DNA of 25,909 bases, taken from assembly GCA_027604665.1 (NCBI GenBank), contig JADGIZ010000106.1, positions 1-25,909 of the forward strand, in the 5' to 3' direction. A program made the translations under genes and the position numbers. This DNA comes from Polyrhizophydium stewartii. Taxonomy: Eukaryota; Chytridiomycota; Chytridiomycetes; Rhizophydiales. Below are positions 4,356 through 25,909 of this stretch, in pieces; the first letter of the stretch is position 1, and each line of letters begins with the position of its first letter. A model generated the notes under the pieces. It ran no database searches, was not told the DNA's origin, and worked only from the letters and a program-made list of their open reading frames with translations.

Positions 4356-7300
4356 ATGCCGCGCATCCCCTCGCCCGAGGCCATGTCGGCCCGGTCAGCC
4401 GAAGCGGTCGAGCCCGGGGTGGATGTGCTGGCTGACGGCGGGGGCATCCTTGCCGGCCGACCTGGATCGCCGGAATCAGAGCGCCATGTCCTCCGCAAAA
4501 AGACCTTGACTCTCCGCGGTGAGCGGTCCCGCCACCAGCCACGCGCCGCGCTGCGTTGGGTCGCACGGACCTGGCGGCCTCTTGCGAAATGGCATCTTCG
4601 CATCGGCGGCGATTTCGCAGCCCTCGACCTTGCCGCCTGCGTCGATCTGGCGCGACGCAGCGCGGGCAGCATGTTTGCTGACGACGGCGACGCGACTGAC
4701 GACCCTCTCGCAGATTTGGTCAGAGCCTCGCACGACGCGCGTGTCAAAGAGACCGAAATGCCTCCAGAGCTGCTGAGCAAGATCAGAGTTCGGCCGCCGC
4801 CTCCCAAGCGATACACGCAGCACTCGCACATTGTCGACGAGCAGTGGATGCGCTTGGAGAACGCACGAAACTATAATCCAAGCGAGTCGATTGCCGCCGA
4901 AGCGGCTGCTGCTGCTCGCGGCCAGAGACCACACGGCTTCCGAAGCATCGACAAGCACGAGCCGAGCAAGGACGCAGAGTGCGCGCCGCGGCCAGTCTTT
5001 CGGGACCGCCTCATTGAGTTTCTCATGTACGCCAGACGCCTTGGGGCACGCCCCTGATGATGAGAATGGCTGACTTGATCACTGTTCCCAAAGCGAGCAG
5101 CAAAACACAAAGAGCGTTATCGATGAAGGTGCTCCACGCCGCTGATCAAATTAAAATGCATGTTGCAGCTTACACGCTGGGCTGCGCGTGCAGAGGACGT
5201 TGCATCGATCATGCTTGTCAATCTCCCAAAAGAGTTTGTCCCCGATCCGCGGACATACAGGATTCTCCAGCGTCTGATTGCCGACGAAGCGTCCGACCTC
5301 GAGGACGAGTCGATCATTGAGGCCTTTTACGATTACTTTGGTGCAAGCATCAAGGCCGTCACCGTCAGCGACCTCGAATCGTCGTGGATCGACGATATCC
5401 TTGGCGCGATTCCAGACTCTCTCAAGCTGCGATTTCCAGATGCCGTCACGCAGCTGATTGACGAGATCCAGGAAGCGTTTCGCGAAAGCGGCAAAGAGTC
5501 GGCAGGTGATCGCGTGCATGAGACTTGCCGCGCTGCCTGCCGCTCCATTGGTGTCTTACCATGCCTATTTGCGATGCAGTCCACCATATACTCAAGAAGC
5601 CCGCACACCTGGCTGCGCGGCAGTAAGTATGGACCCCTGGCAGCCTGCTGCGTAAAGCACATCTCTCTGACGCCAGTTTTTGCAAGGTCGCAGCCGACAG
5701 AAAACCCGCGCCGGACGGCAAGCATCCTGTCCACAAGCGCCTCGCCCTGGCACAAGTCGTTTGTCGAGAACAGGGCAAAGATCGAGCGCCAGCTCTTCAT
5801 CAGTGCGCCAGTGCTGCGCCATTTGCTCGAGACCTGGAGCTACTTTTCGCACTTGCGTTTTGCCAACATTGACGAGATCCGCTCGCAGCGCGACGCATTC
5901 CGCATCTCGTCGTTCCGCAGCCTCATGCTGGTGCAAGCAGAAAAGTGCCGGACCAAGATCTGGCACGGGTGGCTCGCGTCCATCCTCAAGAGCTTTGCCG
6001 AGGCGTTTATCCGCAGAAGGCGGCGCGAGGTGCTTCCGCCGCATCCTCCAGAATCGTTCTTCAAGTGTGCGCAAATGCTCGTTGTCAACCAGCTGCAGTC
6101 GCTCATGACCAGCTCGGTAGCAGATTACATTCGCATGTTTAGCTTCTACCCAGTCACGCTGCCGGCGGGCAGTGCAGCCTCGCTGCCGCGCTTTGGCGCT
6201 CGGCCGCCGCGCTTCTCTGTGCGACTGTCGTTTGTCACCAAGACGCGCGTCATTGAGTTTGATCCGCCGTTCAGCGATATCGAGGATGCGGTCGTTGACG
6301 GCCTTGGATTTTTGGTTTCGACAATCGACTCGGTGCCAAAAATCGAGTCTGCCGTCTACGGCACTGCTGGAGAGTCGCTCCTTGCAATGGAGACGCCTCC
6401 GATCCATGCTATTTTGAAGGCCACGCATGGCGGAAGCAGCGCCGACGGCAAGCCCGCATTCCGCATGTCTCTTGGCGATGTCGAGCAGTGTCGTATCGGC
6501 GTCGAGCAGATTGTGATCGACGCCGCGCTGGCACATCTTCGCAAGTACACGCAGGAATCCTTCGCAGCTGCCAAAGACCACTTGGCGCGATACAACACCT
6601 ATGTGGACCTGTTTTCCGTCGAGCTCGACAAGCAGGTCGACGAGTTCTTCTCGTCAGAACACACCTTCGAGGATTACATCGCGGTAAGCCTGGCCCTGTG
6701 CTCTGGTTTGCCTTGTGTGCCTCGCAGTCGTTTTCTGACGCCCTTGCTGAGCGCAGCAAATCGAAAAGTACAAGAGCATTGTCAACGACATCCTCAATCA
6801 CCCGCGCCGCGTCGAGCTCGTCCTAATCGAGCTCATTACCGAGGACCTCCACCGCATTTTCATCGCGAGGGCAAACTCGCTCGCCGCCAAGTTCATCAAC
6901 AAAATCACGGAGCAGAACATTGAGCACCAGCTGCGGATCTGCACGCGGTACGAGACCATTGAGGAGAAGGCGCTGCGCATTCCCGAGGGCTTCAAGGAGA
7001 TGGCCGAGCAGATGGAGTACATGCACCAGACGCTCGAGGAAGAGCTTCCCTCGCTCCTGAGCGAGCTCGAGGAGAGCCGCCGCCGCCTGATGTATATTTT
7101 CAACTACTCGCTCCTGAGCGAGGACCACATCAAACTCAACTCAAGGACGTTCACGTGGCCGGCGCGCATCATCCCGATCCTCGAGCAGCACAACAAGATC
7201 ATTGGTGTCGCGCGCGAAAAGTCCGAAGAGAGCCTTCGCGAGCGGCGCATCAAGTTTGAGCAAGAGCTTGAGGAGATCCGTGTCCAGGTCGAGGAGCTCC

Positions 7301-10300
7301 GGGAGGTCGGCGATCTTGATGAGATGCCGTTTTACGTCAAGAAGGTGCAAGCCCTCGCAAAGCAGCTGCAAACCGCACAGGAAACCGTGGGCGGCTTCAA
7401 CAAGGAGGAGCAGCTCTTTGGCTGGCCCATCACGACATACCCGCAGCGGAAGCAGATCATGACGACGCTCGAGCCGTTCCAAGCTCTCTACACGACCGCA
7501 GTCAACTTCCAGCGCAGCTACAAGAAGTGGATGGACGGCAACCTGCTCGAGCTCGACGCCGAGCAGATCGAGCAGGAAGTCGACTCGCTCAAGCGCGACA
7601 TGTACCGCGTGCTCGGCACACTTGTGCAAGCGCCGGCGCCACAGAACATTGCCAAGGCGGTCAAGGAAAAGATTGACGAGTTCATGATGAACATTCCAAT
7701 CATACATGTGCTCTGCAACCCGGGCATGCGCGACCGGCACTGGGCCAAGATGAGCAGTATTGCTGGCTTTGAGATTCGGCCAGACGGATCCGCCAGCCTG
7801 CGCAAGATGCTCAAACTCAACTTGGAGCAGTTCCTCGCGCCATTCCAGGACGTCAGCGACGGCGCCGCCAAAGAGTACACGCTCGAGAAGAACATGAACA
7901 AGATGTTCCAGGAGTGGGAGCCTCTCGAATTTACTCTGATCGCCTATCGCGAGACGGGGACGTTTATCCTCGCTTCGGTGGACGATGCGCAGCAGCTTCT
8001 CGATGACCAAATTGTCAAGACACAATCAATGCGCGGCTCGCCTTACATCAAGCCATTTGAGCAGCAAATCAAGGACTGGGAGCGCAAGCTGCTCACGACG
8101 CAGGAGATCCTCGACGAATGGCTCAAGGTGCAAGCCACGTGGCTGTACCTCGAGCCCATCTTCTCGAGCGAGGACATCATGAGCCAGATGCCCGAAGAGG
8201 GAAAGAAGTTCAAGATGGTCGACCACTCGTGGCGCAAGACCATGACGACCGTCAACGAAGACCGCCACATCCTCAAGGCCACCGACATCCCAAACTTGCT
8301 CGAGGAGCTACAGAAAAACAACATCATGCTCGAGGAGATCCTCAAGGGTCTCAACTCGTATCTCGAGCTCAAGCGCCTGTGCTTCCCGCGCTTCTTTTTC
8401 CTCTCCAACGACGAGATGCTCGAGATCCTGTCCGAGACAAAGGACCCCACGCGCGTGCAGCCGCACCTCAAAAAGTGCTTCGAAGGCGTCGCCACGCTGC
8501 AGTTTGACGACAAGCTCGACATCATCAGCCTGTTCTCGTCCGAGAAGGAGCGGCTCCAACTCTCGACTCGCGTCTCGACCGCAGAGGCAAAGGGTGCCGT
8601 CGAAAAGTGGCTCGGAGGGGTGGGTCTTGGCGCTTATTCTTCTCATCGCCGCATCGTCTGACGTGTCGCCTCGGCTGCTGGATGCCGAACCAGGTCGAAT
8701 CTGCCATGCTCAAAAGTCTCCAAGATATCATCAAGGACGCGCACGCGGCCTATCCCAAAAGCCCGCGCGAGAAGTGGGTGCTTGAGTGGCCCGGCCAGGT
8801 CGTCATTTGCGTCAGCCAAATATTCTGGACGCTTGGCGTCGAGGACGCGATTCCCCAGGGCAAGAAAGGCCTCGAGGAGTATCTCGCGCAGCTGAATCGC
8901 GATCTGAACGAGACGATCAAGCTCGTGCGCGGCGAGCTCCCCAAGATGGCGCGCTACACTCTTGGCGCGCTGGTCGTCATCGATGTGCATGCGCGCGATG
9001 TCGTGGCGAACATGATTACGGGCGACTCGATCAGGGACATCAACGACTTTGGCTGGCTCTCGCAGCTGCGGTATTACTGGGAGGACGATAATGTCATGGT
9101 CAAGATGATCAATGCTCAGAAAAAGTACGGCTACGAGTATCTGGGCAACTCGCCGCGCCTCGTTATCACGCCGCTCACGGATCGCTGCTATCGCACGCTC
9201 TTTGGTGCACTGCATCTCAACCTCGGCGGAGCGCCAGAGGGTCCTGCCGGTGAGCTGGTGCGTCGGCTGCGTACTTGCCAACGCTTTTGAGCTGACCAGC
9301 TATCCAGGAACGGGCAAGTGCTGGGGCCGCGGCACGCGGCTGGTCATGCTCGATGGCACGACCAAGGCTGTCGAGGAGATCCGCGAGGGCGACGTGCTCA
9401 TGGGGCCGGACTCGCAGCCGCGCATTGTGCGGCCCGGCTCCATCACGCGCGGCACCGAGGCCATGTACCGCGTCACGGCGACCGACGATGCCCGCATCTC
9501 GTGGACCTGCAACGGCCCGCACATCCTCGTGCTGCAGCTCAACGCCAAGCCCACCGTTGTTGCTGCTGGCGGCCGCTTCTTCGTCAAGACGTGGACGACG
9601 CGGCCCGGCACGAGCGCTGTCTCGCAGATCCCGTGTGCGGATCTCGTTGGCGGTGCATTCTCGACCCGCAACGACGCCGAGGCGTTCATCGAAGAGCTTG
9701 TGCGCACCGAATGGCAGCCACTCGTGTTCGAGTGCACCGTCGTCGATTACCTTGCCATCAAGGACGAGTCGCTGCGGCGGTCACTGGCCATGTTCCAGCC
9801 GCCGCTGATCCAGTGGCCATCGCCGGCCGTCTCGCTCACTGCGAGGATCAGCGAGATGCATGGCGCAGAGGCGTCGCTCGCCATGGTCGCTCAGATCGCA
9901 TGGGCCACCGGTGCATGGCTGGCGCTAAGCACTGGTTCCGGCTGCGTCGAGACTTGCGAGCAAGTTCACTCTGAGTTTGACCGCATCTCTGCAATGCTCG
10001 GCGAGGGCATGCCGAGGAAGCGCGGATCGGCATTCTCGGCATTGCTCGGGTCGTACGGGCTGGCCCAGGCCACGAACATCCCGAGCGAGCTGATGACCGA
10101 CTGCCCGACGGTACGCCGTGCGCTGCTGGCTGGACTTGTCGACTGCAGCGGACGCATTGGCGAGGACGGCGGCTGCACGATCACATCTGCATCGGCAGGC
10201 ATCCTGACTGATGCAGCAAGCCTGGCTCGCGGCCTCGGTCTCGTCGTCGGAAAGTCGCACGGGCATGCATCCATCGCAGTCAGCGGCGTTGGCCTCACGG

Positions 10301-13300
10301 CTGTTGCCGAGCACATTGTGACCGACGACAAGCGCCGCGCTGTCGCTGAGCTGGCATCGAGCGCATGCGGCACGGACCCGTGCTTTGGCTTCACGATCGA
10401 GTGCGTCGGTATCGACGACTACTTTGGCTTCTCGCTCGATGGCTGCGACGGCCGCTGCCTGCTCGAGGACTACACCGTGACGCACAACACCGAGACGACA
10501 AAGGATCTCGCCAAGGCACTCGCCAAGCAGTGCGTCGTGTTCAACTGTTCGGACGGTCTCGACTACCTCGCCATGGGCAAGTTCTTCAAGGGTCTTGCAA
10601 CCTCGGGTGCCTGGGCGTGCTTTGACGAGTTCAACCGCATCGACCTCGAGGTGCTTTCGGTTGTTGCGCAGCAGATTCTGACGATCCAGCGCGCCATCGC
10701 TCTCAACCTCAAGGACTTTATGTTCGAGGGCACCCGCTTGACGCTCAACCCGCACTGCGCAGTGTTCATCACCATGAACCCGGGATACGCCGGTCGCTCG
10801 GAGCTGCCAGACAACCTCAAGGCGCTGTTCCGCACCGTGGCGATGATGGTGCCCGACTACTCGCTCATTGCCGAGATCACGTTGTATTCTTTCGGCTTCA
10901 TCGAGGCACGCAATCTGGCGCGCAAGATTGCCGCAACCTATCGCCTGTGCTCGGAGCAGCTCTCGTCGCAAGATCACTACGACTACGGCATGCGTGCCGT
11001 CAAGTCGGTGCTCACAGCCGCTGGAAATCTCAAGCTCAAGTATCCCAACGAGAACGAGAACATTCTTGTGCTGCGCTCCATCATCGACGTGAACCTGCCA
11101 AAGTTCCTGTCGCAGGACATTGCGCTGTTCAAGGGCATCGCGACGGACCTATTCCCTGGCGTGCGTCTTCCAAAACCCGACTATGCACAGCTCGAGGAAG
11201 CCATCGAGGCTGCGTGCGAGCGGCTGCATCTGCAGATGGTGCCGTCCTTTGTCGAGAAGATCATCCAGCTTTACGAGATGATGCTCGTGCGCCACGGGTA
11301 CATGCTCGTGGGTGAGCCCTTTGCGGGCAAAACGTCGGCGTACCGAGTCCTGGCCGAGGCCCTGACCGACATTGCAAGCAAAGTGCCCGACGGCGTCGAG
11401 AGCGAGTGGCTCAAGGTGCAGTTCAAGGTCATCAACCCGAAATCAATCACCATGGGCCAGCTCTACGGCCAGTTTGACCCCGTGTCACACGAGTGGACCG
11501 ACGGCGTGCTCGCAACCAGCTTCCGCTACTTTGCAAGCAGCACGAGCCCGGACCGCAAGTGGGTCATCTTTGACGGCCCCGTGGACGCCATCTGGGTCGA
11601 GAACATGAATACGGTGCTCGACGACAACAAGAAGCTCTGCCTCATGAGCGGTGAGATCATCCAGCTCTCTAACACAATGAGTCTTGTCTTTGAGGTTATG
11701 GATCTGGCCGTGGCGTCGGTGAGTTTCGAATCGCCGGCGATGGTGCTCCGTGCGGCGATGTGCTGCTGACAATGCGCGCAGCCTGCGACCGTGTCCCGCT
11801 GCGGAATGGTCTACCTGGAGCCCGAGCGGCTCGGCTGGCGGCCACTTGTCCAGTCCTGGCTCATTGGAGTCACGTACTTGACAACGAAAACCAAAGAGTT
11901 CATCAACGCGCTGTTCGAATCGCTCGTCCCTCCGACGCTCGCATTTGTGCGCAAGGACTGCAAGGAACTGTCGCCCACAACGGATATTGGCCTGGTCAAC
12001 TCGCTCGTCCGACTGCTCGACAGCACATTTGACGACTTCCGCAAGTTCCCAGCCCCCGAGGACGTCGAGGCCCACGAGCTCACCGAGCAGCGCATCCAGT
12101 GCCGCTTTCTGTTCTGTATGGTCTGGACCATTGGCGGCAGCATTGACATGGCAAGTCAGGCAAAGTTTGACCGCATGCTGCGGCAGAATGTCCACAAGAT
12201 GCAGCCACCGCTCAAGCTCGAGATCCCGATCGAGGGCACGCTCTATGACTACCTCTATCAAACCCCGCCCGAGAAGACCAAGAACGAGCTCAACAACGCC
12301 GCCAACAACGCCGAGGAGCAAAAGAAAGATGCGTGGATCCCGTGGCTGCAGACGATCCAGACAATCCACCTCCCCGCCGACGCCGACTTCAACGATATCA
12401 TCATCCCCACCAAGGACACGGCGCGGTACAACTACCTCATGGACTTGATGATTGTCCACGACATCCCGCTGCTGCTCGTCGGCCCAACGGGAACGGGCAA
12501 GTCAAAGTACATCATGAGCAAGCTGCTCAACGGAGTGCCGCGCGATATCTTCTTGCCACTGCCCATCAACTTTTCGGCGCGCACGAGCGCCAACCAGATC
12601 CAAGACCTGGTCATGGCCAAGCTCGACAAGCGGCGCAAGGGCGTATTTGGCGCGCCTGTTGGCAAGCGCTTCATCATTTTCATCGACGATCTCAATATGC
12701 CCGCCAAGGAGCAGTACGGCGCGCAGCCGCCCATCGAGCTGTTCCGACAGTGGATGGACCACGGCAACTGGTACGACCGCAAGGACACGTCCAGGCTCGA
12801 GCTCATCGACATCCAACTGATCTCGGCCATGGGACCACCGGGCGGCGGCCGCAACGTCGTGACGCCTCGGTTCCAGCGTCACTTTAACCAGGTTGTGATC
12901 AACTCGTTTGACGAGACGACTATGTTCCGCATCTTCAACTCGATCCTAGAGTGGCACTTTTCGCGCTTCGAGTTTGTCGAGGAGATCCGCAACCTGGCGT
13001 TTGCGCTCGTCGAGGGGACGATGCAAGTGTACCAGTGGGCCGTCGAGAACCTGCTTCCAACGCCGGCCAAGACGCACTACACATTCAATCTGCGCGACTT
13101 TGCCAAGGTCATCCAGGGTCTGGTGCTCTCGCGGCCGGCCAACTTTGCGGGCACGATGCCCATGGTGCGGTTGTGGACACACGAAGTGTATCGCGTCTAC
13201 TACGATCGCCTGGTTGCCGACGAGGACCGCAGCAGCCTGTTCAAGTTTGTGATGTCTGTGATCCGAGACAAGTTTGAAAAAGAGCCCGACGCTGTGTTTG

Positions 13301-16300
13301 CACACGTTGCGACCGGACCTGCGGCGGCCAATGGCAAGCCGACATTCACGGACGACAACATGCGCAGCGTGCTGTTTGGCGACTTTACCGGCAAGAAGGC
13401 GCCGGGCAACGAAGCCGACTATGTCGAGCTCACCAAGTTTGACATCATCACCGAAGTCTGCAAGGCGCAGCTCGCAGAGTACAACCAAGTCAAGAAGGCC
13501 AAGCTCAACCTGGTGCTCTTCCGCTTCGCCATAGAGCACGTGTCCAAGATCTGCCGCATCCTCAAGCTTCCTGGCGGCAACGCCCTGCTTGTCGGCGTCG
13601 GCGGCAGCGGACGGCAGTCGCTCACGCGGCTGTCGGCGTTCATTGCGCAATACGAGATCTTCCAGATCGAGATCTCCAAGTCGTACTCGCGCGTCGAGTG
13701 GCGCGACGACCTCAAGAAGATGCTGCTCATGTCTGGCGTCGAGAATCTCAAGACCGTGTTTCTGTTCCCCGACACACAGATCAAGGAAGAGTCGTTTATC
13801 GAGGACGTCAACAACATCCTCAACGCAGGAGATGTGCCGAACCTCTTTGCGCCGGACGAGAGGCAGAACATCATCGAGAAGCTGTCGTCGGACGCGCAGG
13901 AGGAAGGCAAGGCCGGCGACGGCAGCCCCATGGCGCTGTATGCATACTTTATCGAGCGAGTCAAGAAGAACCTGCATATTGTGCTGTGCATGAGCCCGAT
14001 CGGAGATGCCTTCCGCGCGCGGCTGCGGCAGTTCTCGTCTATCGTCAACTGCTGCACCATCGACTGGTTCCAGGCCTGGCCCGACGACGCGCTGCAGGCC
14101 GTCGCCAAGCAGTTCCTCAACGACATTGAGCTGGACAACTCTGTGCGCGACCAGGTCGTCGCCATGTGCCAGCACTTTCACCAGTACTCGATCGGGCTGT
14201 CGCAGCGGTATCTGCAGGCTCTCTCGCGGCACAACTACGTCACGCCCACGTCGTACCTGGAGCTGCTGTTTGCGTACAAGACGCTGCTGAACAAGCGCCG
14301 CGAGGAGATCTCGACGGTGCGCAAGCGCTATGCGGGCGGCCTCGACAAGCTGCAGTTTGCCGCCGAGCAGATTGCGCGCATGCAGGTCGACCTCAAGGAG
14401 CTGCAGCCGCAGCTGCTCAAGACGTCCGAGGAGACTGTCGAGATGCTTGCCAAGATCGAAAGGGAGTCGGTCGAGGTTGAGTCGACGCGCAAGACGGTGG
14501 CGGCCGACGAAGCTGTGGCGTCGTCCAAGGCCGAGCAATCGGCGGCCATGAAGAACGAGTGCGAGAACGATCTTGCCGAGGCGCTGCCCCTGCTCAACGC
14601 GGCGCTGTCGGCTCTAGACACACTCAAGAAGACGGACATTGATTTGGTCAAGTCCATGAAGAACCCGCCCGACGGCGTCAAGCTCGTGATGGAGGCCGTG
14701 TGCGTCATGAAGGATATCAAGCCCGAGAAGGTCCCCGACCCGTCGGGCTCGGGCCGCATGGTGCTCGACTACTGGAAGTCGTCGCTCAAGATGCTCAGCG
14801 ACCCGCAGTTCCTCAACAGCCTCAAGAGCTTTGACAAGGACGATATCCCGCCGCACGTCATCAAGAAGATCCGGCAGACCTACATCCCCAACCCCGAGTT
14901 CAAGCCCGAGAAGGTGCGCAACGCATCGTCGGCCGCCGAGGGACTGTGCAGCTGGATCATTGCCATGGAGGCGTACGACCGCGTTGCCAAGATCGTGGCA
15001 CCCAAGCAAGAAGCGCTCGCCAAGGCCGAGGCCGAGCTCGCCGAGACGATGAAAGGACTCAATGAGAAGCGCGCGCTGCTCAAGGAGGTCATGGACCGGC
15101 TGCAGACGCTCAACGACAACCTCCAGGCGCTTGCGGACAAGAAGGAGCGGCTCGAGAAGGAGGTCAAGAGTTGTGAAGACCAGCTAGATCGCGCGCAGAA
15201 GCTCCTTGGCGGTCTTGGCGGCGAGAAGCAGCGCTGGACCGAGATCACCAAGCAGCTTGACGGCACGCTCTACAACCTTGCAGGAGACGTGCTCATCTCT
15301 GCGGGCGTGGTGGCGTACCTTGGCGCATTCACCAAGACGTACCGCCAAGAGTGCATTGCGTCGTGGGTTGCGACTCTCAAGAGCGTCAAGATCCCGTGCA
15401 CGGATGCGTTCTCGCTGATCAAGGTGCTGGGCGATCCGATCCTGATCCGCGCGTGGAACATTGCGGGTCTGCCGTCGGACGCATTCTCGATCGACAACGG
15501 CATCATTGTTCAGAACGCGCGGCGGTGGCCGCTGATGATCGACCCGCAGGGCCAGGCCAACAAATGGGTCAAGAACATGGAGAAGGACCGCAACCTCGTC
15601 ATCATCAAGCTGACCGATGGCGAGTTTGTGCGCAGCCTCGAGAACGCAATCACGTTTGGCCTGCCTGTGCTGCTCGAGAACGTCAAGGAGGAACTCGACC
15701 CTATCCTCGACACTGTTCTGCAGAAGCAGACCTTCAAGTCAGGCGGCGCCACGTGCATCCGCCTCGGCGACGCCGTCATCGAATACGCCGAGTCTTTCCG
15801 GCTCTACATCACCACCAAGCTGCGCAACCCCCACTACCTGCCCGAGACGAGCGTCAAGGTGTCGCTTCTCAACTTCATGATCACGCCCGAGGGTCTCGAG
15901 GACCAGCTGCTCGGTATCGTCGTCGCAAAGGAGCGGCCCGAGCTCGAGGAGGAGAAGGTGCAGCTGATCCTGCAGTCAGCCGAGAACAAGAAGCGACTCA
16001 AGGAGATCGAGGACCAGATCCTGCAGATCCTGTCCTCAGCCGAGGGCAACATTCTCGAAAATGAGACGGCCATCGAGGTGCTGTCGTCGTCCAAGGTGCT
16101 CTCGGTCGAGCTCTTTGACAAGCAGCGCATTGCCGAGGAGACCGAGCGCAAGATTGACGAAACGCGCGAGTCGTACCGGCCGATCGCCAACCACTCGGCG
16201 GTGCTCTATTTCTGCATCGCGGACCTGGCAAACATCGACCCCATGTACCAGTACTCGCTGACGTGGTTCATTGACCTGTTCACCAACTCGATTGCGCAGT

Positions 16301-19056
16301 CGAACAAGTCGAGCGTGCTCAAGCGCCGCCTTAAGAACCTCGAGTCCTACTTTACATACTCGCTCTACTGCAATGTGTGTCGGTCGCTGTTTGAGAAGGA
16401 CAAGCTTTTGTTCTCGTTCCTGCTGTGCTCGACGATCCTGCGCAACCACAAGGACATGAACGAGGCCGAGTTCTCGCATCTCATGACGGGCGGTCTCGGC
16501 CTCGGCGGGCCGGCCATCCCCAACCCAGACCCGTCGATCATCTCGGAAAAGAGCTGGGCCGAGATCGGGCGACTGTCGGACCTGCCGGCCTTCAAGGGGC
16601 TGATCCAGGAGTTCAAGATTGCCGAGTGGAAGCAGATCCTCGAGAGCAACGACCTGCAGGAAGTGCCGTTCCCCGGGCGGTGGAGTGCGCTCAACGACTT
16701 CCAGCGCTTGCTCATTGTGCGCGCGCTGCGCAACGAAAAGATTGTGCCGTGCGTGCAAGAGTTTGTCAAGATCAAGCTCGGGCACAAGTTTATTGAGCCG
16801 CCGACGTTTGATCTGGCGGGAAGCTACGAGGATTCGAGCAACCGCAGTCCGCTCATCTTTATTCTCTCGCCGGGCGTGGACCCCATGGCGCAGTGAGTGC
16901 CGCACCGCCGTTATGGCAGACCGTGAGTGGTGCCAGAGTCCTGAATGATGACACGCACCGCAGGCTGCTCAAGTTTGCCGACGACAAGGGCTTCAGCGGC
17001 CAAAAGTGCCAAAGCATCTCGCTCGGCCAGGGCCAGGGTCCAATCGCCGCCAACATGATCAAGGAGGCGCAAAAGGGCGGCACGTGGGTTGTGCTGCAAA
17101 ACTGCCACTTGGCCGTGAGCTGGCTGGGCACGCTCGAGAAGATCGTCGACGACATGTCCAGCGGCGCGTCTGTTCACAAGGACTTTCGTCTCTGGCTCAC
17201 GTCGTATCCGAGCCCAAAGTTCCCGTCCTCGATCCTGCAGATCGGCGTCAAGATGACCAACGAGCCGCCAAAGGGCATCAAGGCCAACATCCTCAAGAGC
17301 TACCTCAGCGACCCCATCTCGGACGAAAAGTTTTTTGCTGCGTGCAAGAAGCCCAGCGAGTGGGAGAAGCTTCTCTTTGGTCTCTGCACGTTCCACGCCA
17401 TTGTCCAGGAGCGCCGCAACTTTGGCCCGCTCGGGTGGAACATCCCGTACGAGTTCAACGAGTCTGACCTGCGTAAGTGTCTTGCGAAGCGGATGTTAGC
17501 GCGTCGGAGCAGGCTCGCTCGTGTGAGGGTGGAGGCGACGCAATCCAAACGCACCGAGCTGACGCGTGCGGCGACGCCGCGACGGGCTCGCAGGCATCAG
17601 CATGCGGCAGCTCCAGATGTTCCTGGACGAGTACGCCGAGATTCCATTCAAGGCGCTGATTTACCTGACGGGCGAGTGCAACTACGGCGGCCGCGTGACA
17701 GATGACTGGGACCGGCGGACGCTCATGAACCTGCTCACGACGTTCTACTGCCCGGCGATCGTCGACGATAATGGGTACCGCTTCTCGCCTTCGGGCACGT
17801 ACTACGCGCCGGCCAAGGGCAAGTACGAAAACTACCTCGAGTACATCCGCAGCCTGCCGCTGAACCAGAGCCCCGAGATCTTTGGCATCCACGACAACGG
17901 CGATATCGCCCGGCAGCTTGCCGAGACGCGGCAGCTCTTTGAGTCGATCATCAAAACGCAGGAGAACGCGACTGGAACGGGCGGCGGCAGCGGCCAGAAA
18001 ACGAGCGACGAGATCCTGATCGAGGTGTCCTCGGATATCCTGGCGCGCGTGCCGCCTGCGTTCAACCTCGAGGCGGCCATCAAAAAGTACCCAGTCAACT
18101 ACAACGAGAGCATGAACACGGTGCTGATCCAGGAGATGATCCGGTTCAACAAGCTGATCCAAGTTGTGCTCGTGAGCCTGGTCAACGTGCAGAAGGCCAT
18201 CAAGGGTCTTGTCGTTCTGTCGGCCGAGCTCGAGGAGGTGTGCAAGAGCATCTTGGTCGGCCGCGTGCCGGCCATGTGGGCGAGCAAGTCGTACCCGTCG
18301 CTCAAGCCGCTGGGCGGGTACATCAACGATCTGATCCAGCGGCTCAAGTTCTTCCAGACGTGGCTCGAGCAGGGCAGCCCGAAAGTGTTTTGGATGTCGG
18401 GCTTCTTCTTCACGCAGTCGTTCATCACGGGTGGGTCTTGCTTCTGCGCATGCGGCTCGGCCCAGCTGGCGCTGCTGGTTGCGGCTGCGATAGTCACTGC
18501 GGCGGCTGACCGGTTTGCTGCACGTCGATCCGCTCGCGGACGCATCACCTACAGCAACGCTACAAAACTATGCTCGCAAGTACACGATCCCGATCGACGA
18601 GCTCGGCCTCGACTTTGAGGTGCTCGCGATCACAACGTCGGACACGGCGCCCGAGGACGGCGTATACGTCAACGGGCTTTTCCTCGAAGGCGCGCGGTGG
18701 TCGCGCGAGCGCGGCCTGCTCGGCGAGTCACTCAGCAAGGTGCTCTACGACCCGCTGCCGATCATCTGGTTCAAGCCGATACGCATCGTCGACATCCGAA
18801 CGCAGGGCACGTACACGTCGCCCGTGTACAAGACCAGCGCGCGCCGAGGCGTGCTGTCGACCACGGGCCACTCGACCAACTTTGTGATTGCGATCCGGCT
18901 GCCGACCGATAAGCCCGAGAAGCACTGGATCATGCGCGGCCTCGCTGCCCTGTGAGTCGATCGCCGCGCGCGGCCTCGCATCGTGTTGCGCGGCGAATGG
19001 TGGACGGGAGGCTGACGCTCGTTATCGTGGCACTCAGGCTGCAGCTGGACGACTGA
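4356..19056 (+). CDS. Axonemal dynein heavy chain (DNAH7/DNAH3/DNAH12-like inner arm type), intein-containing
   Basis: Motor subunit of a ciliary inner arm; it uses ATP to slide doublet microtubules. Supported exons: to 5505, 5580-5622, 5687-6683, 6757-8619, 8694-9249, 9308-11718, 11782-16892, 16964-17472, 17594-18430, 18555-18951, 19038-19056. From 5160 they encode 4362 residues, or 3972 without the intein, a normal length. Domains in order: tail and linker (5160-9200); AAA1 with GPAGTGK/T split by the intein, then Walker [13 protein letters not shown]2 GEPFAGKT (about 11311); AAA3 GPTGTGKS (12481); AAA4 GVGGSGRQS (about 13594); stalk coiled coils flanking the microtubule-binding domain (14290-15200); AAA5, AAA6 and the C-terminal domain ending ALLQLDD. 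The last exon is 19 nt. N-terminal exons (candidate ATG 4356 or 4383, possible intron 4519-4620, an unresolved join between about 5026 and 5160) are uncertain. Dynein identity is certain; the orthologue group is a guess from overall resemblance. Confidence 0.95.
9250..9307 (+). other. 58-nt GT-AG intron splitting the AAA1 P-loop codons
   Basis: The donor GTGAGC at 9250 and the acceptor ATCCAG ending at 9307, with a CTGAC branch site at about 9292, split the first Gly codon of the GTGKT part of Walker A (phase 1). Removal joins GAPEGPAG to TGK, exactly the invariant dynein AAA1 sequence. The intein begins 11 nt after the acceptor. Confidence 0.95.
9319..10488 (+). mobile_element. Intein (390 aa) in dynein AAA1 Walker A, with degenerate LAGLIDADG endonuclease
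   Basis: An in-frame 1170-nt insertion separates GTGK from [14 protein letters not shown], which are contiguous in other dyneins. Block A starts at Cys1 ([13 protein letters not shown], then [14 protein letters not shown]). Block B is CNGPHILVL with His68; the usual Thr three residues before the His is Asn here. Blocks F and G are [10 protein letters not shown] and [10 protein letters not shown], ending His389-Asn390, with host Thr as the +1 nucleophile. Between them is an endonuclease-like region. Motif 1 at about 9901-9936 reads [12 protein letters not shown] where xxGxWLGDG is expected. The NIPSELM segment precedes motif 2, LAGLVDCSG, at 10126-10152. The catalytic acid of each motif appears replaced (Asp to Leu and Asp to Ser). 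By family knowledge the Hint fold excises itself and ligates the flanks after translation. Splicing should be functional and homing lost; both are inferred. Base composition matches the host gene. Confidence 0.96.
14290..15200 (+). other. Dynein stalk coiled coils and microtubule-binding domain
   Basis: Within the 5.1-kb exon 11782-16892, a heptad-rich stretch after AAA4 ([20 protein letters not shown] and onward) forms coiled coil 1. It is followed by a compact region with [30 protein letters not shown] and [12 protein letters not shown] motifs, the microtubule-binding tip. Coiled coil 2 follows ([20 protein letters not shown]...). Order and spacing are those of a standard axonemal dynein. 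Boundaries are approximate. Confidence 0.85.
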
Positions 19057-23018: not shown

Positions 23019-25909
23019 GGGGGCGATCCGGGTGCTGACGACGCGCGGGATGCAGCAGCTCCACGACTCGTACGCAACGTACCGGCAGTTCACGACGCAG
23101 GGCGAGCATGCTCTGGCGCAGACGCTGTCGTACTTTGTCGAGCGGTGCGCACCGGGGGGTGGCTGCGACCGAGGGCGGCGGTGCTGCGTTTGTGTGGGTC
23201 GGGTCGGGTCGGGCTGGGGCCTCGAGGTGGCCGCGGCGGCCGCTGCTCTCAGACACAGCTAGTGCTGGGGCTCTCGGGGCCGTCTGGCACGGCACGGCGC
23301 TGGACGCCGTGCGCCGTGGACCCGCCACGGCCCTATTCCCCCGGCCGGCGGCAGCGCTGCACCGCACCGGCGGCTGTGCGAGGGGAGGGCACCAGATCAG
23401 ATGGACTGGCCGCGACCGCCCGCACGCCCACCCGGCGTGTACCGCCGGGCCGGGATGCGGCGTGGGGCATGGGTGGCGTGGCCGCCCCCAGGCATGCCCC
23501 GTACTAGCCGCCGTTCACGGCCGCCTGCCTCTCCTACCCCTCGGGCGGCGACGGCGACAAAGTGCGCCGCGTGCTGACGTGTGCATTGGTGGCGACGCAG
23601 ACAACGCATTGAGAGCAACTACAGTGATGCGCTGGAGAAGCTCGCTCGGCGCATCGCCGCCGACGTGAATGTGACGTGGGTTGCGGGCTGCGCTGATAGC
23701 TGCGGACTGTCCTGATTGCACCTTCCCGGACGGCCGGCTGACTGCCGAGTCTCTGCGCTTGCTGATCCTGTCGCTGTGGATGCTGCGTGGCGGTGAACGC
23801 GGGTGCCCATGCGGGCAGGTCCATCGTGCAAGGCGGCGCCACCAAGACGGTTGCCGAGGCATGGCGCCGCGTGAGCGAGTGCACCCGCACGCTGCACACG
23901 GAGCACCAGGCGCTCGCGGGCGTGCTGAGCGGCATTGTCGACGAGCTGAGCAAGGAACAGGCAAGCATGTCGCGCTTCATGCTCCGTGGCCGCGTGCCCG
24001 CGACTTGGATCGGCTGTGTATGAAGCTCATGCGCTGACTGCCCGAGCAGCATGCGCAGGAGAAGGCGCTTAAGCTGCTTCGGTCCGAGGTCAAGACCACG
24101 CAGCGCGAGTACAGCGATCTGCGCCTGTCGAGCCTGCCCAAGGCGAGTCGAGACTCTGCGTATGCGGGCGAGGCGACTATCGTTGGCTGACGCGGGGCCG
24201 CTCATGTCGCGGGCCGGGCAGGTCAAGCAGGCGTACTACAAGAAAAGCGAGTCGCTTGAGAAGGAGCCCAAGGAGGCGCCGCCTGGCTCTGGCGGCGGGA
24301 CGTCGCAAAAGTACGTCAAGCTGTCCAAGGAGGTTGCTCTTGCGGACCAGACGTACCGTGCGTCGATCAACTACCTCGAGGAGGCGCGCAACAAGCTGCA
24401 CACGGTGCGCGCCAAGGCACTCATGGTGCGTGGCCGGGTCCGAGCATCTTTCGTTATTGGCGCGATTGCGTGGCCGAGTCGCTTGTTTGGCGTGGAGTGC
24501 TGATGGCGGGCATGCTGAGCACAGGAGGGCGAGCGGATCGAGCGCAAGCGCATTCTGACGACCAAGAATGTGCTGACGCGGTACTGCGAGACCGAGAGCA
24601 ACCTGTGCGCGACTTGGGTCAAGGCGAGTTGCGCGGGGTGGCGTGCTTTGGAGCACGTCGACTGTTTTCCGGAGCACAGATGCTGACTCGGCCGGCGGTC
24701 TTGACGCGGCGTCTTCTGGTGAGCAGGAGATGGATTCGCTGCGCGTGTATGTGGAGTGCATCAAAGAGGAAGTGGACACGTCGCTGCACAGGCAGGAGTT
24801 CCAGCGTGCCTGGCCGGAGCCGGACCATGTGTACTACGAGAACTTCAAGACCCGCCTTCCGGCCAAGAGTGTGTCCTGGGTCGTGCGCGACGCCTGAGGC
24901 GGCAGCGAGCGCAGGCTGACGGATGGCTGGGCACGGTGCAGACCTGATCTTTGGCGTGCCGCTCGAGACGGTTGTCAAGTCGTACCCAGACACTGGCGTG
25001 CCGCTTGTGCTCGCCAGGTGCCTCGAGGCGGTTGAGGCGCGCGGGCTCGACCGCGAGGGGCTGTACCGGATCTCGGGCAAGGTCACGGAGACCAACGAGC
25101 TGCGCGTGCTGCTCGAGACGGACGCGAACGCGGTGAATCTGATGGACGAGCAGCACGACATCAACGCCATAGCGTCGCTGGTCAAGCAGTTCTTCAGGGA
25201 GCTCCCGCAGCCGGTGTTCTACTTCCCCGCGCGCGACCGGGCCGAGTACTCGCGTGGGTGCCGCGCATGGCCTCGCTGGGGCGGCAGTGTCGCGACGGGC
25301 GGTGGGCGGCTGACGGCGGCGCTTTGGTGCAACAGAGATTGCGGACGAGCGCGAGCGGCTGATCCGGCTGCGGGCTCGCGTCCGAGCGCTGCCGCACCCG
25401 AACCGCATGCTCCTCAAGCGCCTGATCAAGCACCTGTCCAAGTGAAGGGCGCGATGGTCAGAGCGTGTCGCGTGCGAGTGCGGCGATGGCTGACACAGCC
25501 TGCGGGGGGCGTGACAGGGTCGTGGCGAGCTCTGACAAGAACAAGATGGTGGCGTCGAACATCAGCTTGATCTTTGGCACGGCCTTGTTCCACGCGCACC
25601 AGGACGTTGGAGCCGATGGTCCACTGGGCGGCGGTGGCGGTCCGCTCGGCGGGCTGGCAGCTCTGGGCGGCGGCGGGCTCGGCGGCGGCGGCTGGTTGAA
25701 GCCGTTCGCCAACCTGACGGGCGGCGGCAACAGCGGCGGCGGCGGCAGCAGCGGCGGCGGCAGCAGCAGCGTGGCGTCGAGCAACAGCAATCTGCACGCA
25801 AGCAGCAGCGCGATGGGCATCAGCGGGGGCACCGGCAACGGCACGGGCGGCAGCGGAGGCGCAGCGATGAGCGCCGGCCCGGCGGCGGGAGCAGCGGGTT
25901 CCCCGACCC
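23019..25909 (+). CDS. F-BAR domain and RhoGAP domain protein, 5' start unresolved, 3' cut by window
   Basis: Probable exons 23019-23144, 23601-23675, 23819-23993, about 24050-24142, 24222-24425, 24525-24623, 24727-24868, 24942-25253, 25336-25441 and 25518 to the edge join in frame. The first seven give an F-BAR-like helical domain (LSYFVERQRIESNYSDALEK, TKTVAEAWRRVSECTRTLH, ALKLLRSEVKTTQREYSDLR, VKQAYYKKSESLEKE), which binds and curves membranes. The next three give a RhoGAP domain: FGVPLETVV, GLYRISGK with the Arg finger at 25067-25069, FFRELPQPVFYF, LPHPNRMLLKRLIKHL and NKMVASNISLIFGTALF. It should speed GTP hydrolysis by a Rho-family GTPase. The architecture resembles fungal Rgd1-type regulators of polarity and wall integrity. 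A Gly/Ser-rich tail starts at about 25612 and is still open at the window end. Two introns (24143, 24624) start with GC. The first exon is missing. Confidence 0.88.
24143..24221 (+). other. Probable GC-AG intron (F-BAR gene)
   Basis: CCCAAG is followed by GCGAGT at 24143, and the acceptor GGGCAG ends at 24221, with CTGAC at about 24187. Phase 0 on both sides joins SSLPK to VKQAYYKK. No in-phase GT donor was found at this end. Confidence 0.65.
24624..24726 (+). other. Probable second GC-AG intron (F-BAR gene)
   Basis: GTCAAG is followed by GCGAGT at 24624, and the acceptor GAGCAG ends at 24726. Phase 0 on both sides joins LCATWVK to EMDSLRVYVE. The donor context AAG/GCGAGT is identical to that of the intron at 24143. 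Confidence 0.6.
25627..25909 (+). repeat. GGC-rich low-complexity tail (poly-Gly/Ser coding)
   Basis: GGCGGCGG and AGCAGCGG runs encode Gly-Gly-Gly, Gly-Gly-Ser and Ser-Ser stretches after the RhoGAP domain and run to the window edge without a stop in the RhoGAP frame. Disordered linker is the likely role. Confidence 0.75.

Follow-up and report, generated by a model that had tools for sequence, protein, structure and literature searches.

A contig of 25,909 nt from the chytrid Polyrhizophydium stewartii (JADGIZ010000106.1, assembly GCA_027604665.1; this whole stretch is called the window below) carries a gene for an axonemal dynein heavy chain whose AAA1 P-loop (Walker A motif) is interrupted by an intein. 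Comparison with the rest of the assembly suggests that a P-loop intein multiplied within this one nuclear genome and so came to occupy equivalent P-loops in paralogous genes for axonemal dyneins; we put the probability of this reading at about 0.8. It is also fairly likely that a selfish intein was here the carrier by which spliceosomal introns were gained, that the combined unit entered non-orthologous (AAA2) as well as paralogous P-loops, and that many flagellar motors need RNA splicing and then protein splicing, 11 nt apart, to obtain their ATP site.

Inteins in the dynein genes of the assembly

The features of the window that the argument draws on are the following.

4758..18952, + strand: axonemal dynein heavy chain gene, DNAH7-like (tblastn of the public protein P0122, nine stretches; Pfam DHC_N2, AAA_6 to AAA_9 and MT stalk)
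9240..9249, + strand: end of the N-extein exon, last 10 nt GGTCCTGCCG (G-P-A-G...), left microhomology of the unit
9250..9307, + strand: predicted phase-1 GT-AG intron of 58 nt that accompanies the intein, 11 nt upstream of it
9308..9318, + strand: exon remnant of 11 nt, GAACGGGCAAG, which completes Walker A (..G-T-G-K)
9319..10488, + strand: intein of 390 codons (open reading frame, Pfam, PI-SceI alignment, multiple alignment), with approximate borders at residues ~1-100 (Hint N), ~151-330 (decayed LAGLIDADG endonuclease region) and ~331-390 (Hint C)
9319..9321, + strand: Cys1 nucleophile, invariant in a 38-row alignment
9511..9522, + strand: block B, N65-G-P-H68, with N65 and H68 invariant in the 38-row alignment
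10114..10155, + strand: remnant of LAGLIDADG motif 2, residues 266-279 (PI-SceI alignment, multiple alignment)
10483..10488, + strand: block G, His389-Asn390 (sequence and 38-row alignment)
10489..11334, + strand: C-extein, comprising the +1 Thr and the remainder of AAA1 (AAA_6; Pfam)

A preliminary description, made from the letters of the window alone, had placed an intein between Lys and Thr in the catalytic P-loop of AAA1 (Walker A, here GPAGTGK^TET) and had named Cys1, His68 and His389-Asn390 as its splicing residues; these points hold in the sequence, in Pfam, in a sequence search of solved structures and in the 38-row alignment. The axonemal dynein host was also correctly named: the intein is flanked by DHC_N2 upstream (471 bits) and AAA_6 downstream (433 bits), and the DNAH7 type follows the public name of P0122 (nr; Dynein heavy chain 7, axonemal, of P. 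stewartii, 4362 aa), which is identical across the window intein. That the intein splits Walker A likewise stands, but GTGK is not contiguous upstream of it as had been described, since the 58-nt intron parts GPAG from TGK. The P0122 model reads GPAGTGK across 9250-9307 and its exon matches break at that intron. After predicted removal of the intron, the motor sequence runs up to the Lys of Walker A at the insertion point and continues beyond the intein as TETTKDL. Three host proteins in nr are near full length (4299-4695 aa). Two further P. stewartii models in nr are irregular: P0123 mis-joins exons at the unit (RTLFGTGKCWG), so that part of AAA1 is skipped, and P0124 starts inside the intein.

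The similarity of the insert to Hint/intein profiles, the lack of which had been named beforehand as speaking against the identification, is clear: Hom_end_hint (PF05203) covers residues 1-389 with 64.2 bits (cut-off 32.1) and Hom_end covers residues 253-337 with 36 bits (cut-off 21.1). No NCBIfam profile matched the window intein. The closest solved structures by sequence are PI-SceI, the VMA1 intein of another gene (E 5e-15), and Prp8 inteins (E ~2e-7). There is no stop codon over the 390 codons, and none of 5000 shuffled-base controls stayed open; the segment ends TGC...AAC. An intron or a chance open reading frame was rejected on these grounds. In all eight copies described below the frame is open without GT-AG ends, and the mean dN/dS of 0.29 over seven of them argues for translation, so that the insert appears to be coding, as first proposed. 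The splicing residues (Cys1, H68, and the terminal His389-Asn390 followed by Thr +1) are kept in all eight copies in the multiple alignment. Block B of the TxxH type usually has Thr; here it reads N65-xx-H68, with Asn at the usual Thr place as in the aligned intein class. On this evidence from sequence, 9319-10488 is a Hint/LAGLIDADG intein of the P-loop-specific class with intact-looking splicing residues.

The window's own assembly (12.86 Mb, 690 contigs) was searched for further copies, and eight inteins were found on seven contigs. Seven of them (C106, that of the window, and C74, C59a, C246, C169, C15 and C49) are 390 aa long, the other six being 89-93% identical to C106; the eighth, C59b, has 403 aa and is 43% identical to the window intein in the assembly search. 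A Pfam search recovered the same eight loci, all above cut-off, three with the full profile and five with positions 1-85 only. Every copy sits after GTGK and before Thr, seven in AAA1 and C59b in AAA2 of the gene whose AAA1 carries C59a. By best matches among solved structures, the hosts are DNAH7/3-like (C74, C15), DHC2/DNAH1-like (C246), DNAH6-like (C49), DNAH5-like (C59) and DNAH9-like (C169), where for C74 and C59 the top chain carried an unrelated label and the next chains were used; the host of C106 is named DNAH7 in nr. Intein-free dynein genes are C27 (DNAH10-like), C19 (DNAH2-like) and C267 (cytoplasmic dynein 1). We take C27 and C19 to be the two f/I1-type chains, and C123 presumably resembles cytoplasmic dynein 2, by motif only. 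C7 and C45 are divergent dynein-type genes that were left unclassified. Thus inteins occur in 7 of the 9 genes classed here as axonemal, among 13 dynein-type genes in total. According to passages of a paper on this fungus, a saprophytic relative of Batrachochytrium, the long-read assembly of strain JEL0888 comprises 31 Mb (PMC12204190); given the 12.86 Mb searched here, eight copies is a lower bound.

The seven AAA1 inteins are 91-96% identical in DNA, and the flanking exons of their hosts are near saturation (fourfold-site identity 0.42-0.45, codons 30-75 downstream). The first Gly codon of the P-loop is GGT at 7/8 intein sites and at 0/4 empty sites (P = 0.01), which is a hint, at the level of sequence, of short co-conversion on the left.

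The linked intron and the AAA2 copy

The intron upstream of the intein is 58 nt long in all eight units, which align without gaps over it, 37 of the 58 columns being invariant. It has the features GTRAG...CTKAC...CAG in each case, and its excision in silico yields GPAGTGK or GPTGTGK; its removal is consistent with two public gene models, P0122 and P0145. The predicted intron is of spliceosomal type and, to judge from its distribution, travels with the intein. When the whole assembly was searched at the DNA level with the window's intron region, eight matches were obtained and all eight adjoin inteins. Exact matches to the branch-region pattern were likewise confined to these eight introns in the assembly; with up to two mismatches there were 66, fewer than the 105 of a reversed control. 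A genome-wide introner was rejected, because the copies found adjoin inteins and not unrelated genes. Among the seven AAA1 units the mean intron distance (0.166) equals the mean intein dS (0.167), and since the same intron stands in all eight units, intron and intein appear to have spread jointly. The retention of the intron argues against retroposition from mature mRNA.

At exactly this phase-1 position of Walker A the intein-free gene C27 also bears an intron, of 77 nt. It resembles the eight 58-nt introns weakly (eight comparisons, P = 0.016 to 0.33), and a descent of these from it is not convincing; the C27 intron may preserve the arrangement from which the unit arose, or the coincidence may be due to chance. 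An intron at this place would also break the target of a P-loop endonuclease and might protect the C27 gene.

The AAA2 copy is informative as to the mode of transfer. Compared with C169, C59b differs at 2 of 58 intron positions and at 1 position of the 11-nt exon, whereas the C59b intron differs from those of the other six AAA1 units by 5-10 mismatches, from which we infer that transfer ran from a C169-like unit to C59b. From the first base of the intron up to intein nt 134, C59b and C169 mismatch at a rate of 0.08; the rate rises to 0.57 in the rest of the first 300 intein nt. The fit gain at this right border was reached by none of 500 shuffles; the best left edge, placed without a shuffle control, lies 11 nt before the intron, where the homology amounts to about 10 nt (GGTCC...CTG). 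C59b is therefore a chimera, with a conversion tract between AAA1 and AAA2 units. Beyond residue 45 its intein is 34% identical to that of the window and thus about as distant from it as the DEAH-helicase intein P0126 (33%). In our reading, C59b began as an independent and apparently older intein of AAA2, and a C169-like AAA1 unit supplied its intron afterwards.

Decay of the endonuclease and a proposed route of spread

Over the seven AAA1 copies, the mean dN/dS (21 pairs, which are not independent) is 0.29 overall, 0.14 for residues 1-100, 0.38 for residues 151-330 and 0.33 for residues 331-390. In LAGLIDADG enzymes the Asp that ends each of the two motifs is catalytic, and K301 and D326 of PI-SceI have catalytic roles. 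Motif 1 is LGLWLGDG in many relatives and IGAWLALS or nearly so in the seven AAA1 copies; motif 2 is LAGLIDSDG in relatives and LAGLVDCSG or similar in these seven copies. The motif 1 Asp is replaced by Leu in the seven AAA1 copies and by Arg in the AAA2 copy, that of motif 2 by Ser, Arg or Cys in the AAA1 copies and by Ala in the AAA2 copy, so that no copy retains either catalytic Asp of an active enzyme. In the window intein, T252 and S277 occupy the places of K301 and D326 of PI-SceI. The splicing residues hence look intact and the mobility enzyme looks dead. Among near relatives, P0126, P0002 and P0005 have lost one or both endonuclease Asps and P0004 keeps both. That residues 151-330 are still constrained without the catalytic Asps (dN/dS 0.38) raises the question of a structural or other role.

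The following course of events could account for these data. An intein would first have entered a P-loop beside an intron, giving a mobile unit made up of the 58-nt spliceosomal intron, the 11-nt exon remnant and the intein. A break or recombination at the P-loop codons of a second gene would have been repaired from the intein-bearing paralog, the copy being resolved by ~10 nt of exon homology on the left and by P-loop or intein sequence on the right, with the neighbouring intron carried along. After the spread the endonuclease would have decayed, while Hint would have been retained because each AAA1 site needs excision. In expression, the spliceosome would remove the 58-nt intron and the intein would be translated inside the motor; self-excision through Cys1, His68, His389, Asn390 and Thr+1 would then rejoin GTGK to TET and restore the catalytic Walker A, the ligated peptide being GPAGTGKTETTK. 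AAA1 activity should need protein splicing, and we infer that motility would depend on excision. If this is true, the activity of the flagellar motor would depend on protein splicing in a chytrid, and the linked intron would offer a concrete path, open to testing, by which spliceosomal introns are gained.

As for the driver of such copying, two versions can be proposed, and neither reaches even odds in our estimate. In canonical homing, an endonuclease once active and since decayed would have moved the intein, the intron following by co-conversion of the flank. The LAGLIDADG region is retained in all eight copies, LGLWLGDG and LAGLIDSDG are preserved elsewhere in the class, and the short left tract and the common GGT codon fit homing; yet the seven AAA1 copies have Leu at the motif 1 Asp and no Asp at motif 2, so that the enzyme was probably inactive already in the ancestor they share, and the dN/dS of the endonuclease region is still 0.38. 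The other version, which we hold as possible with similar reserve, is ectopic gene conversion between paralogous dynein P-loops, independent of an endonuclease, with the resident intein as template. It would agree with the loss of the endonuclease residues in all copies and with a C59b tract that starts in P-loop homology and ends within the intein, but that homology is very short for spontaneous conversion, and at least seven driverless events in one family seem unlikely.

Two explanations dispense with intragenomic spread altogether. An ancestral dynein with intein and intron might have been multiplied by gene duplication and inherited vertically, as the shared residue of insertion in all AAA1 copies would allow. 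We rejected this reading as very improbable, because the hosts are distinct heavy-chain types with near-saturated flanks while their inteins are nearly identical in DNA, because the AAA2 copy has the same intron, and because 116 of 117 other dyneins lack the intein (see below). It is barely credible that the insert is removed at the RNA level, or that we are dealing with pseudogenes or with an artefact of assembly: gene models such as P0123 and P0124 look automatic, but the open frames without GT-AG ends, the purifying selection, the occurrence of eight diverged copies on seven contigs and the three near-full-length nr proteins all speak against it.

Several observations nevertheless weigh against multiplication of the intein by copying between dynein genes. 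With both motif Asps missing in every copy, the present inteins should not home unaided; for the spread one has to assume that an ancestor was active, that a helper enzyme took part or that gene conversion alone sufficed. The fourfold identity of the nearest ten codons is modestly raised (0.41 versus 0.24 on the left, 0.72 versus 0.60 on the right). The GGT codon is not rare here (6/21 Gly codons in the neighbouring exon stretch), and the 77-nt intron of C27 shows that an intron at that spot can exist independently of an intein. Recombination among the seven AAA1 copies was not significant in a clustering test (P = 0.07), and incompatibility was much the same in tree-like simulations (0.51 against 0.55; informative sites, 54 against 86).

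Relatives and known systems

A set of 140 non-dynein relatives was assembled among the matches listed (partly the best 120 of 200), and in 128 of these the intein lies directly after Gly-Lys. Their hosts include DnaB, SF2 helicases, RFC, AAA proteins and others. A viral profile search gave at least 537 relatives among 600 stretches, of which 80 were kept; 50 of the 80 loci were parsed, with GK or SK before Cys in 34. A close viral source was not found with a single-sequence search, and the 80 profile relatives kept are all at most 30% identical. In a 28-row tree, in which the placement of C59b and other long branches is unsure, the dynein inteins group with those of UPF1-like, DEAH and XPB-like proteins and two other proteins (support 100/100), and the other 15 rows lie outside this group. 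The dynein inteins thus appear to belong to a P-loop-specific class that is found in bacteria and viral contigs. They resemble the bacterial and viral members (DnaB, SF2 helicases, AAA+; PF05203/PF05204) in the site GK^C...DFTVTHN^T, of which the 128/140 count tests the Gly-Lys side, and in the Hint blocks; they differ in having a eukaryotic motor as host, several copies in one family, a linked spliceosomal intron and a decayed endonuclease. The nearest relatives, the UPF1-like (P0002), DEAH-helicase (P0126) and XPB-like (P0003) inteins, are eukaryote-like; their genes were named after their Pfam domains and flanks. They share the GxGK^T site and are 28-34% identical to the window intein beyond residue 45, but occur in one protein each and were compared at the protein level.

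Further dyneins were examined as well. Among the best 120 of 1854 matches, the AAA1 P-loop is unbroken in 116 of 117 further dyneins, the exception being from P. stewartii, and the other three of the 120 are P. stewartii proteins already included; no intein-bearing dynein from another organism was present. DNAH7/3-type chains are numerous in this sample and Batrachochytrium is represented; absence from other chain types of relatives is accordingly less well covered.

Nuclear inteins are few, and the VMA1 intein is, unlike the dynein inteins, an actively homing element with a single copy per genome. Intein b of the archaeal A-ATPase catalytic subunit also parts Lys240/Thr241 of a nucleotide-binding site; it resides in an archaeon and another gene, and no linked intron is reported in the relevant passages (PMC2814812). 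The examples of fungi with more than one intein in passages of a 2018 survey have two and three per genome, and the fungal GLT and CHS inteins, ~52% similar, are treated there as a likely intragenomic transfer (PMC5784728); the dynein inteins, at eight sites, reach 89-93% identity. The word 'dynein' is absent from the main text of that survey. A 2006 paper regarded ectopic movement of inteins as very rare, since homology in the flanks is missing (PMC1635734). In P. stewartii, the P-loop common to a gene family may have supplied such homology, and at least eight sites are occupied in one fungal assembly. That spliceosomal introns may be moved by endonucleases is not new as an idea: a 2025 paper proposes it for mirusvirus introns that encode homing endonucleases (PMC12768974). 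There the system is viral and the endonuclease gene lies inside the intron, with no LAGLIDADG type listed and an intein as carrier absent from the available portion of the paper (PMC12768974). P. stewartii, unlike mirusviruses, has a plain 58-nt intron outside an intein, in nuclear genes. No literature on dynein inteins or on inteins in Polyrhizophydium was found among open-licence papers, nor any on intein-borne spliceosomal introns, as judged from titles and the beginnings of abstracts.

Another intein of the same genome seems to reside in the RPB1 gene (C356, ~10922-11272, minus strand), between ...PATQMTLN and TFHYAG. An open reading frame piece of it matches PF14890 with 44 bits (cut-off 35.8), and its last two residues seem to be Arg-Asp in place of His-Asn. 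The neighbours of the dynein gene in the window give weak glycosyl hydrolase 26/113-like matches below cut-off (516-1731), a match to ribosomal protein L13 (2678-3820) and a RhoGAP domain (24920-25567).

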